A stretch of 64,000 bases of DNA from Actinomycetota bacterium (lineage in GTDB: Bacteria; Actinomycetota; Acidimicrobiia; Acidimicrobiales; Ilumatobacteraceae): NCBI GenBank assembly GCA_963169665.1, contig CAUJET010000142.1, positions 1 through 64,000 of the forward strand, written 5' to 3'. The translations under genes were made by a program, and so were the position numbers. Shown here one piece after another: positions 49,256 to 55,185 of this stretch. The notes beneath the pieces are model-generated. The model made no database searches, had not been told where the DNA came from, and saw only the letters and a program-made list of their open reading frames with translations. Within the stretch, counting starts at the first letter, position 1. Every line of letters begins with the position of its first letter.

Positions 49256-49293
49256 AACACTCCTGGAACCCGGGTGGGGGTGGTGTGCGTGTG

Positions 49294-49851
49294 ATGCTCG
49301 TGGAGATGGACGTGGCGGCCGGGGAGGCCGACGAGGAGCAGCAGCCGCTCGATGTCGACGAGTTCTGTCGTCGCGCCCATCCCCGCCTCGTCCGCACGCT
49401 CACCGCAGCGACCGGTGACGTGTCGCTCGCCGACGAGATCACCCAGGAGGCGCTCGCTCGGGCGTGGGAGCGGTGGGACCGGGTGTGTCGCCTCGACCAG
49501 CCGGAGGCGTGGTGCTACCGGGTCGCGATGAACCTGGCCCGGTCGCAGTTCCGGCGCCGGGCCGCAGCGAGACGGGCGCACGACCGCATGCCTGCCGCGT
49601 CGACGGCCGTCGACGGGGCGGCGTCGACCGACGACGAACTGATGACCGCGCTGCGGCGGCTGCCCGAGCTGCAGCGGTCGGTGCTGGCGCTGCGCTTCCT
49701 CGCCGATCTGTCGGTGGAGTCGACCGCCGACGTGCTGCGCATGCCGATCGGCACCGTGAAGTCCACCACCAGCCGTGCCCTGGCCGAGCTGCGCCTGATC
49801 CTCGACCCCCGCCCCGATCCACGCCCCACGACGGAGGCCCACGATGCATGA
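49294..49851 (+). CDS. ECF sigma factor, pair 4
   Basis: A 185-residue ECF sigma factor. Region 2 is DEFCRRAHPRLVRTLTAATGDVSLADEITQEALARAWERWDRV and region 4 is LPELQRSVLALRFLADLSVESTADVLRMPIGTVKSTTSRALAELRL. ATG at 49294 is chosen after a G-rich stretch; GTG 49285 and ATG 49306 are alternatives. It overlaps the membrane partner by 8 bp, as in pair 3. Its region-2 layout (WDRV-x-x-L-x-x-P-x-AW) matches pairs 1 and 2. Confidence 0.86.
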   Translation: MLVEMDVAAGEADEEQQPLDVDEFCRRAHPRLVRTLTAATGDVSLADEITQEALARAWERWDRVCRLDQPEAWCYRVAMNLARSQFRRRAAARRAHDRMPAASTAVDGAASTDDELMTALRRLPELQRSVLALRFLADLSVESTADVLRMPIGTVKSTTSRALAELRLILDPRPDPRPTTEAHDA

Positions 49852-51547
49852 TCTGGAAGACCGCCTGCGGTCGCTCGACCTCCCCGCTCCCCCGCTCGCG
49901 CCGCGTGCGATCGCCGCACGGGTCGAACGACGCCGGCACCGACGACGGATCCTCACGACCGGCGCTGCCGCCGTTCTCGTGCTCGCGACCGTCGGCTCGC
50001 TCGCCGTGATGGCCACCGGCGACGACGACGCCACCATCGCCCCTGCGAGCGCCCCGTCCGAGCCGTCTCCGGTGTCGTCGGCGAACACGATCCCGACACC
50101 CTCGGCCGAAACGACCGCAGCCGAGACGACTCCGGACACGACGATGGTGGATCTCAGCGGCGAAGACGGCGGCCTCTACATCGACCCGGCGGTGGCAACC
50201 GAGCTCGGGCTGGTACCCGACCACGCGGGAGACCCCGTCCCACTCGACGAGCCCGACGCGTCCGAGCAAGCACCGTTCACCCCGGACGACATCTCGTCCG
50301 ACATGCAGCGAGCCGTGTTGGCCCGATACGACGGCACGCGATCGCTCGTCATCGACTCGATCACCGTCAACGTCCTCCCGTCGGCGTCCGGTCTCTCCGA
50401 GATGGAGGGCGAGATCGTCACGCTCCCGAACGGGTTCGAGGCTCGACGCCAGGACGCCTGGATCAGCTGGAGCGACGGCATCCACGACATCTCCGTCCAG
50501 CACATCACGTCGTCCCCACCATCGCCCGACGCGAGCCCGACAGTCGACTTGCTCGCGATTGCCCGCAGCGTGACCGTCGATGCCGACGGGGCCATCGAGC
50601 TCACCACCGTTCCGGATGGCTTCGAACGACTGCCTTCCGAGATCGCCGCCGATGGGACCTCCGGCTCGTACAGGTCGATCGACTATCGCTCCAACAGCTC
50701 GCTCGCATCCGACCGTCCCGAGCTCTCGATCGATGTTGCCACAGGCGCCCATACCGCCGAGCACCTCCTCGTGGAGCGCTCGATGATCGGACCCGCTCGC
50801 GCCGTCGAGCACCGAGGTCAGCGGATCATCGTGAGCCACGACGGGCTCATGTCGCCTCGACCGTACGTGGAACTCATCTGGGACGACCCGTCCGGCATCC
50901 AGGTGTGGGTGACCTACTCCCCCATGGAGCTCGATGCGACCGAGCAGGACCGCGAGGTCTTCGCGTTCCGGGTCGTCGACGCGCTGCGCCGTGCCGATGC
51001 TGCGAACTGGCGGGAGCTGCAGCGGACGGCCGACGAGGCACACCGAGCACTCGTCGACGTCGCATGGATCGACGAACTGCTCGGCGCCAGAGGCTTCGAA
51101 CGAGTTGGATCCATCGCTCCCGATTGGGAGGTGCTCTGGGATCGCGACGGGCTCTTCATCGTTTCTGCTCGCAGTGATGACGGGACGGCAGCCGATTGCC
51201 TCATCGTCCTGCGCACCGATGTCCGGTGTGTCACCGCAACGGACCCGCTCCGCGGTCGGTTCGCGACGGCCCGCGTCGAGCGGACCGTCGGCGGTCGACT
51301 GATCCTGTTGACGACGCCCGACATCTCCGGTGTCTCGCTCCAGCGGTTCGACGGCGGATGGGGCCGGAGCACGATCGATCTGTCGGCTGCAGACGACCCG
51401 CGAGAGCTGCGCGCCGTCTTGATCGAGCAGCCCTCGGTGCCGGCGTGTCTCATCCTGTCGGCAGACGACCACGTGGTCGTCACCCGGTACTCGCTCGTCG
51501 ACGGCGCCCTCGTCGACCCATCCGAGTCGTGCATGGCGCAGACGTAG
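49844..51547 (+). CDS. Single-pass membrane protein, putative anti-sigma/sensor, pair 4
   Basis: A 567-residue protein with a short, very basic cytoplasmic segment (RVERRRHRRR), one membrane helix (about 37-57), a Ser/Thr/Pro/Ala-rich linker and an exported region of ~480 residues with no recognised domain. A few paired cysteines occur near the C-terminus (CLIVLRTDVRC, CLILSAD). No HxxxCxxC motif, and its cytoplasmic part is much shorter than in pairs 1-3, so the way it contacts the sigma factor may differ. ATG 49844 overlaps the sigma gene by 8 bp. Confidence 0.7.
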   Translation: MHDLEDRLRSLDLPAPPLAPRAIAARVERRRHRRRILTTGAAAVLVLATVGSLAVMATGDDDATIAPASAPSEPSPVSSANTIPTPSAETTAAETTPDTTMVDLSGEDGGLYIDPAVATELGLVPDHAGDPVPLDEPDASEQAPFTPDDISSDMQRAVLARYDGTRSLVIDSITVNVLPSASGLSEMEGEIVTLPNGFEARRQDAWISWSDGIHDISVQHITSSPPSPDASPTVDLLAIARSVTVDADGAIELTTVPDGFERLPSEIAADGTSGSYRSIDYRSNSSLASDRPELSIDVATGAHTAEHLLVERSMIGPARAVEHRGQRIIVSHDGLMSPRPYVELIWDDPSGIQVWVTYSPMELDATEQDREVFAFRVVDALRRADAANWRELQRTADEAHRALVDVAWIDELLGARGFERVGSIAPDWEVLWDRDGLFIVSARSDDGTAADCLIVLRTDVRCVTATDPLRGRFATARVERTVGGRLILLTTPDISGVSLQRFDGGWGRSTIDLSAADDPRELRAVLIEQPSVPACLILSADDHVVVTRYSLVDGALVDPSESCMAQT

Positions 51548-53100: not shown

Positions 53101-55023
53101 TCAGCTCGTCGCGGCCCAGCCCGACACCGAGACGATGTCGAACACGACCAGGGCGGCGAACTCGGCGGTGCGGTACTGCACGTAGCGGTCCCGCAGCGCC
53201 TGCGTGAGCGCCGTCCGGAGCGAGATGTCGACGTCCGCGTCGTCGACTCGCGCGAGGTCGGCCCGAACCCACCAGAGCTGGCGCCAGTCGTGGCGGTCCC
53301 AGTGGTCGGCCAGCAACGTGGCCCGAGGGTCGGCATCGAGGTTGTCGACGCGGCGCAGCGCCGTCGACGATTTCGGCTTCACCCGGTCGACGGGCACCAC
53401 GACGTGGTCGCCCACGAGCGCGAAGCACACCGGCACCGCGTGCACACCGCGATCCGGATCGAGCGTCGACAGCACGGCGTGATCGGCGACGGTGAGCCGT
53501 GCTCGAGCGTCCTCGATCGTCATCGGCATCCCCGCATCCTCGCCGCCCTCGTCGCCCGGTGTCGAGATCGGGCTGACGGCGACCGATGCGTTCCGTCGTG
53601 TCGGGCGGGCCGGGCGGGCGATGTGCAGGTCGAGCCGCTCACCATCGGTCGGTACCACGGCGTTCCAGCCGAGTTCGTCCATGATCCGCGTCCTGAGCGC
53701 GAGCGAGGCTCGCTCCTCGCCGTGCACCACGAACACGCCGCTCGGCTCGCGTGTCGCCGTGCCCAGCCAGTCGATCAGCTCGCTACCGTCGGCGTGCACC
53801 GAGAAGCCGCTGAGGTCGCACACCTCGGCGCGCACGGGCACGTAACGGCCGTGGATCTTCACCGAGTCCGCGCCGTCCATCAGGCTGCGGCCTCGCGTGC
53901 CCGCTGCCTGGAAACCGACCAGCGCGACCGAGTTGGCAGGGTCGGGCAGGAACTTCTCGAGGTGGTGTACGACCCGGCCGCCCGAGGCCATGCCGCTGCC
54001 GGCGATGATGATGGCCGGGCCGCTCATGCGGCTCACCGCCTTCGACCCCTCGGCGTCGAGCACCTCGTCGAGGTCGGGCAACTCGAACAGCGTGCCGTCA
54101 CCGTGCAGGTCGTCGCGGACGTCGACCGCGTGGCCGTCGATCGCATCGCGGTACACGCTGAGCGCGGCCAGCGCCATCGGGCTGTCGACGAAGATCGGCA
54201 CCGCCGGCAGGCGGCCCTGCTCCGACAGTTGGTGCAGGTGGTACAGCAGCACCTCGGTCCTGTCGACCGCGAAGGCGGGGATGATCACCTTGCCGCCTCG
54301 GCCGACGGTGCGATCGATCAGCTCGGCGAGTCGGTCGACGGTGTCGTCGGAGGCGTGCTCACGATCGCCGTAGGTCGACTCGATCACGATCCAGTCGGTG
54401 TCGCCGATCGGTGCCGGCGGTCGCAGCAACGGGTGTTCCTGGCGCCCGAGGTCACCGCTGAAGGTGACGGTCACCTCCTCGCCGGGCACGTTCCCGAGCG
54501 TCATGCGCACGCTCGACGAACCGAGGATGTGGCCGGCCACCTCGTAACGCGCCCGCACGCCGGGCACGATCTCGAGGTCCTCGTCGAAGTGCACCGGCCG
54601 CAAGCGGTCGAGCGCGGTCCAGGCGTCGTCCTCGGTGTACAGCGCCAGCGCCGGACGGTGCCGCGAGTACCCGGCCCGGTTCGCGAACCTGGCCTCCTCC
54701 TCCTGCAGCCGGCCGCTGTCGGGGAGCACCACCGACATGAGCTTGCCGGTGTCGTAGGTGACGAACACCGGCCCGCGGAAGCCGGCGTTCACCAGGCGGG
54801 GCAGGTAGCCGCAGTGGTCGAGATGGGCGTGGGTGATCACGATCGCGTCGATCGTGCGAGGCGAGACGGCAAAGGGATCCCAGTTCCGCTCGCGGAGGTC
54901 CTTCAGTCCCTGGAACAGCCCGGCGTCGACGAGCACCCGCCGGTCGCCGACCTCCACCAGGAACCGGCTGCCGGTGACGGTACGGACGCCGCCGAGGGTG
55001 GTGAGGACTGCTGGCTCGCGCAT
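53101..55023 (-). CDS. Beta-CASP metallo-beta-lactamase ribonuclease fused to a PPOX (Rv0121-like) domain
   Basis: A 640-residue single reading frame. Residues 1 to ~460 are an MBL/beta-CASP nuclease like the bacterial RNA-specificity exonucleases: zinc motif THAHLDHCG (His65, His67, Asp69, His70), VAGHILGSSS, TFSGDLGR, ESTYGDREH, a beta-CASP insert with GSGMASGGR, FSVHADGSEL and VHGE. After a ~40-residue linker, residues ~501-640 are a split-barrel flavin/F420-binding domain of the Rv0121 type, seen in DHAVLSTLDPDRGVHAVPVCF, DRVKPKSSTALRRVDNL and LWWVRADLARV. No stop separates them, though Met499/Met501 could be an internal start. AGGAAGAGG precedes ATG 55023. Expected to process RNA; the role of the added domain is unknown. 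Confidence 0.87.
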   Translation of the reverse strand: MREPAVLTTLGGVRTVTGSRFLVEVGDRRVLVDAGLFQGLKDLRERNWDPFAVSPRTIDAIVITHAHLDHCGYLPRLVNAGFRGPVFVTYDTGKLMSVVLPDSGRLQEEEARFANRAGYSRHRPALALYTEDDAWTALDRLRPVHFDEDLEIVPGVRARYEVAGHILGSSSVRMTLGNVPGEEVTVTFSGDLGRQEHPLLRPPAPIGDTDWIVIESTYGDREHASDDTVDRLAELIDRTVGRGGKVIIPAFAVDRTEVLLYHLHQLSEQGRLPAVPIFVDSPMALAALSVYRDAIDGHAVDVRDDLHGDGTLFELPDLDEVLDAEGSKAVSRMSGPAIIIAGSGMASGGRVVHHLEKFLPDPANSVALVGFQAAGTRGRSLMDGADSVKIHGRYVPVRAEVCDLSGFSVHADGSELIDWLGTATREPSGVFVVHGEERASLALRTRIMDELGWNAVVPTDGERLDLHIARPARPTRRNASVAVSPISTPGDEGGEDAGMPMTIEDARARLTVADHAVLSTLDPDRGVHAVPVCFALVGDHVVVPVDRVKPKSSTALRRVDNLDADPRATLLADHWDRHDWRQLWWVRADLARVDDADVDISLRTALTQALRDRYVQYRTAEFAALVVFDIVSVSGWAATS

Positions 55024-55037
55024 GTCGACCTCTTCCT

Positions 55038-55061
55038 GTCGCTCCGTCGTGTCGGAGCGAC
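55038..55061 (-). promoter_or_regulatory. Perfect 9-bp hairpin just upstream of the nuclease SD
   Basis: GTCGCTCCG-TCGTGT-CGGAGCGAC, a perfect 9-bp stem with a 6-base loop that ends 14 bases before the nuclease ATG, next to its SD. It could be a 5'-leader control element or the terminator of the MaoC-like gene 125 bp upstream. Confidence 0.55.
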
Positions 55062-55185
55062 CACCGGGCGACCGGGGCGCTCCCGGAGGTCACGCCCCGG
55101 CCTCGCCATCATCGTCCGCCCGGACGCCGACGGCGACCAGGGCCGGTGGTCCCCCGGCGCTGACCGGCGGACCGCCCCGACGAAG

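Follow-up and report, generated by a model that had tools for sequence, protein, structure and literature searches.

The question raised by this locus is whether one reading frame in the window (the whole 64,000-nucleotide stretch of DNA that was analysed) encodes a genuine fusion of a ribonuclease with a redox-cofactor-type domain and, if so, what the second domain might contribute to the first. The minus strand carries a single open reading frame of 640 codons, running from ATG to TGA with zero internal stops, and its predicted product comprises a complete TTHA0252/CPSF73-type beta-CASP ribonuclease and, beyond a linker of 30 residues, an equally complete FDOR-B2/Rv0121-like split barrel (PPOX) domain (Table 1). 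The first-pass annotation had described an intact nuclease and split barrel in one stop-free frame, with the nuclease ending at about residue 460 and the second domain spanning about residues 501-640; the frame itself and the Pfam, NCBIfam and PDB matches confirmed this description, with the nuclease body ending near residue 466 and the PPOX domain beginning at Met499 or Met501, and added the minus-strand assignment. The accompanying statement that no such fusion was known also held for the open-access literature, in which no paper on beta-CASP and PPOX domains together and no description combining F420, a split barrel and a domain fusion were found. The architecture is rated here as new and lineage-restricted, and both component domains as known.

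Table 1. Features of the fusion gene, in window coordinates.
Feature	Position	Strand	Basis
Whole fusion ORF	53101..55023	-	640 aa + TGA; stop-free full-length homologues in G001 and G004
Shine-Dalgarno-like AGGAAGAGG ahead of nuclease start ATG	55029..55037	-	duplex energy -7.0 kcal/mol
Predicted beta-CASP metallo-beta-lactamase ribonuclease, residues 1-466, TTHA0252/CPSF73 type	53626..55023	-	Pfam, NCBIfam and PDB matches; 139/140 conserved columns
Zinc motif 2 HAHLDH, residues 65-70	54814..54831	-	conserved in relatives and the three fusions
Beta-CASP domain, residues 259-381	53881..54249	-	PF10996, E 1.9e-30
RMMBL (RNA-specificity) domain, residues 395-458	53650..53841	-	PF07521, E 1.7e-19
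Linker, residues ~467-498	53530..53625	-	begins where stand-alone relatives stop; dN/dS about 1
Shine-Dalgarno-like GAGG upstream of ATG499	53538..53541	-	-7.9 kcal/mol; 10% of internal ATG controls reach -8
Internal ATG499 and ATG501	53521..53529	-	match start codons of stand-alone PPOX genes
Predicted FDOR-B2/Rv0121-like split-barrel (PPOX) domain, residues 501-640	53104..53523	-	TIGR03668 and PDB matches, conserved columns

The nuclease half is predicted to be a member of the beta-CASP metallo-beta-lactamase ribonucleases of the TTHA0252/CPSF73 type. A Lactamase_B match (Pfam) covers residues 21-81 (E 4e-11), and the Beta-Casp and RMMBL profiles pass their curated cut-offs (106 bits against 27.7 and 70 bits against 21.6, respectively). 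The closest solved relative is TTHA0252 of Thermus thermophilus (PDB 2dkf; residues 9-444, E 6e-83), and the aCPSF1 profile TIGR03675 aligns with an E-value of 1e-78, reaching position 629 of its 631. Comparison of 43 stand-alone relatives gave 140 columns conserved in at least 90% of them, and all three fusions identified below keep 139 of these columns unchanged, including H65, H67, D69 and H70; the further active-site-type residues D33, H165, D191, E215, H354 and H410 are likewise conserved in relatives and fusions. We take D33, HxHxDH at 65-70, H165 and D191 to be the metallo-beta-lactamase motifs, and E215, H354 and H410 to be the beta-CASP motif residues.

Several observations were made on the wider nuclease family. 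One nuclease-only homologue (genome G222, locus L040) has a longer C-terminal tail, with 51 residues after HGE, and the same genome holds a second copy (G222:C136) at 46% identity. Proteobacterial plasmids (matches H4 and H6-H9, e.g., NZ_CP032407.1) carry nucleases that are 44-50% identical, and these matches touch an adjoining gene annotated as a thymidine phosphorylase family protein, hinting that this nuclease group is tied to nucleotide salvage. The nuclease had no close relative among the viral contigs searched.

The second domain is predicted to belong to the FDOR-B split-barrel superfamily. TIGR03668 (Rv0121_F420, NCBIfam) matches residues 505-636 (E 1e-24) with 87 bits, under the curated cut-off of 119 bits; stand-alone PPOX relatives also fall under it, with none of eight tested genomes over, so the domain represents a neighbouring subfamily rather than the equivalog. 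The structures of MSMEG_6526 (PDB 5jv4/4zky) align with residues 505-638 (134 residues) with E-values of about 5e-16 to 1e-15. Of 24 family-conserved PPOX columns, 22 are kept in the fusions, including K549, K551, D579, W580, W584, W585 and R587, and no fusion genome has a strong TIGR03668-type match besides the fused domain (E ~1e-25; next best ~1e-5). The F420 biosynthesis gene CofD exceeds its cut-off in each of the five congeners, which makes F420 production probable. The split barrel has very probably kept its ability to bind a deazaflavin (F420) or a flavin. Split-barrel oxidoreductases are typically homodimers. An AlphaFold monomer model built from four sequences had a mean pLDDT of 51, which is of low confidence and carries no interface information.

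The complete fusion was detected in three of 222 genomes of the family, all within one genus: the analysed genome (G000), G001 and G004. The G001 copy (JAPLAA010000125.1, a Lac Pavin MAG) is 94% identical, the G004 copy (WLDE01000052.1, isolate UFOp-RE-15aug16-175, also a MAG) is 77% identical, and neither has a stop at the junction. The carriers are a small group of freshwater-lake actinobacteria comprising three species. The architecture was thus recovered in other genomes and the junction proved open in three species, two points that the first-pass annotation had proposed checking; it had also named adjacent separate genes with an intervening stop as the sign of an artefact, and none were found; in other family members, where both domains occur, they are unlinked, on different contigs. 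An assembly or sequencing error that erased a stop between two neighbouring genes is accordingly very improbable. Such an error could be suspected because both public records of the fusion come from metagenome assemblies and because the nucleases of the congeners G002 and G003 terminate at a TGA near residue 470, just past the conserved C-terminal motif and near the junction. However, three independently assembled genomes share the open frame, two of them traced to different public isolates, and no close PPOX homologue follows the stop in G002 or G003 or was found elsewhere in these assemblies, that of G003 being only 83% complete. Assembly error was rejected on the in-frame fusion and shared neighbourhood in G001 and G004.

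Wider searches confined the fusion to this lineage. No further case was found in samples of 397, 395 and 397 genomes from the order, class and phylum, respectively, which overlap and together cover about 1,200 different actinobacterial genomes. Exact octapeptide patterns, which detect close relatives only, were run against 84,980 species genomes and hit just G001, G004 and a single nuclease-only contig. Among 72,556 plasmids, 262 records matched, none covering 80% of the query and none with both domains. Additionally, no PPOX remnant was recognisable behind the nuclease stop at eleven nuclease-only loci (two of them being the same contig). The three fusions group together in the nuclease tree (46 rows; support 100/100) and in the PPOX tree (31 rows; support 97/90); their nuclease halves fall alongside the nucleases of G002 and genus g11. 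The simplest reading of these trees is a single fusion event in the ancestor of G000, G001 and G004. The genus is compositionally heterogeneous, as GC3 is near 0.73 in G002 (L069, G002:C76) versus about 0.9 in G001 and G004.

The three fusions also share an ordered neighbourhood (MFS / fusion / MaoC / LLM / XRE), with a convergent MFS gene on one side and genes for MaoC, an LLM-type oxidoreductase and an XRE regulator across the fusion. Between MaoC and the fusion, genes labelled from sequence as PAS-domain, chemotaxis-receptor-like lie in G001 (L076:3280-4942) and G004 (L077:3769-7108), whereas the corresponding gap in the window is only about 160 bp (55024-55185); this spot has therefore gained or lost genes. 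Elsewhere in the window (49285-51547), an ECF-type sigma factor-like gene is overlapped by the next gene, which encodes a large, 567-residue protein with no family assigned; judging by sequence alone, the two are possibly an anti-sigma or sensor pair.

Evolutionary rates distinguish the two domains from the segment that joins them. Between G000 and G001, the nuclease (dN 0.023, dS 0.324, dN/dS about 0.07) and the PPOX domain (dN 0.020, dS 0.201, dN/dS 0.10) both have low ratios, indicating that both are constrained by purifying selection. The aligned linker (dN 0.200, dS 0.183, dN/dS about 1) evolves almost neutrally, and yet the frame is open in all three fusion genomes with no frame-breaking change. 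This openness is by itself weak evidence because the DNA is G+C-rich, and in G000 neither of the two remaining forward frames has a stop across the linker region either. Nearly all stand-alone nucleases stop 32-51 residues past their final HGE/HGD motif, two shorter distances reflecting a later HGE within the tail; the fusions add 30 residues (G000 and G001) or 41 residues (G004) beyond the usual stop, up to the PPOX methionine.

A near-neutral linker of varying length is what would be expected if loss of a stop had merely joined two unrelated enzymes that kept their old jobs, the flexible linker preventing interference. This fusion of convenience is quite possible and ranks second, close behind the reading preferred below. 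Its other support comes from the second start site and from the relatives of the PPOX domain. In the alignment, Met499 falls where stand-alone PPOX genes have their native start. The Shine-Dalgarno duplex energy upstream of it is -7.9 for both G000 and G001 and -11.4 for G004; the nuclease's own start has -7.0, and 170 internal ATG controls average -4.4 (s.d. 3.0). Retention of the ancestral PPOX start with a moderate Shine-Dalgarno site inside the gene makes a free PPOX product possible, as had been proposed from Met499 and Met501, and internal initiation at ATG499 is plausible; on the convenience reading, the retained start probably also yields free PPOX. As a conserved element, the internal site is only suggestive: the identical stretch that surrounds ATG499, at 45 nt, ranks only fifth by length within the gene, and a Fisher test of nucleotide conservation upstream of this ATG gave no significant result (p = 0.39). 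In relatives, stand-alone PPOX genes adjoin catabolic-looking genes, not the nuclease. What counts against mere convenience is the junction, open in three species at 77-94% identity, although this is less telling in GC-rich DNA.

The neighbours of these free relatives (L074, L079, L080, L081 and L082) were often AMP-dependent ligase-, LLM-type F420 oxidoreductase- and short-chain dehydrogenase-like genes, the labels being read off sequence starts, suggesting a catabolic role rather than one in RNA metabolism.

The retained cofactor-domain residues and the presence of CofD in the genome would also be consistent with a switch, in which the F420/F420H2- or flavin-bound split barrel turns the RNase on or off and so couples RNA decay to metabolism, an idea put forward in the first-pass annotation. 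Metabolic enzymes such as enolase and phosphofructokinase do join bacterial RNA decay, as in the degradosome-like network of B. subtilis (PMC8152036). However, no feature of the sequence supports an allosteric link, the FDOR-B proteins are known as reductases, and no sensor function for them was found in the literature searched. The long, almost neutral linker argues against tight allosteric coupling, and a dimerising, tethering or merely bifunctional fusion fits at least as well. Redox or cofactor switching is consequently considered unlikely, and the narrower proposal of a split barrel that controls the ribonuclease by sensing the F420/F420H2 ratio, or the state of the flavin, is a little less likely again.

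The reading that we tentatively place first is that the split barrel binds a cofactor and acts, at the C-terminus of the RNase, as a module for dimerisation, by analogy with related nucleases. Loss of the last 12-13 residues of aCPSF1 disrupts its dimerisation as well as its RNA binding and nuclease activity (PMC8716108), and the dimer of MTH1203 is its more active form (PMC3095777). Since the nuclease aligns to position 629 of 631 in the aCPSF1 profile, the PPOX domain is attached directly behind the dimerisation segment, and the placement there of a fold that is typically homodimeric is the reason for preferring dimerisation or stabilisation of the RNase. In this scheme, the nuclease stop would have been lost or bypassed ahead of a PPOX gene, once, in the ancestor of the subclade, placing a normally homodimeric split barrel directly behind the nuclease C-terminus. 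By keeping two copies of the nuclease joined, the barrel would increase or stabilise RNase activity; the F420 or flavin cofactor would be mainly structural, possibly a modulating ligand, and a shorter free PPOX might also be made from the internal ATG. Two points count against a dimerising module: the TTHA0252-like bacterial nucleases may need no dimerisation, and the nearly neutral linker enforces no fixed geometry.

The role of bacterial CPSF73-like RNases is poorly defined, and we know of no other beta-CASP nuclease with a redox-cofactor domain. If the split barrel alters RNase activity, the fusion would tie RNA decay to the metabolism of F420 or flavin in a simple way; if it acts as a sensor, a single protein would connect deazaflavin redox state with RNA turnover. 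Without regulation too, the locus offers a natural test of whether C-terminal dimerisation controls bacterial CPSF73-like RNases, and it provides a clue to the function of FDOR-B2 proteins.

Compared with known systems, each half of the fusion has well-defined homologues. TTHA0252, which degrades RNA as a 5'-3' exonuclease and probably as an endonuclease and alters global mRNA levels (PMC4229858), is homologous to the nuclease half but is a 431-residue nuclease without a C-terminal split barrel. MSMEG_6526/Rv0121 (FDOR-B2, TIGR03668) is homologous to the second domain; MSMEG_6526 is listed as an FDOR-B2 protein with weak F420H2-dependent reductase activity, and the F420 literature gives its physiological substrate as unknown (PMC5449967, PMC8498797). 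The literature portrays FDORs as small proteins of a single chain (PMC8498797), whereas the PPOX domain of the fusion is joined to a nuclease. The bacterial RNA degradosome is a functional parallel only, in that an RNase is physically associated with a metabolic-type enzyme; its complexes are non-covalent, whereas the fusion is covalent, involves a different nuclease family and is known here from sequence. The archaeal KH-MBL-beta-CASP nuclease aCPSF1/FttA shares a homologous catalytic core and provides the precedent for an additional domain on that core combined with dimer-dependent activity; in aCPSF1, however, the additions are RNA-binding KH domains at the N-terminus, whereas that of the fusion is C-terminal and has a redox-cofactor fold.
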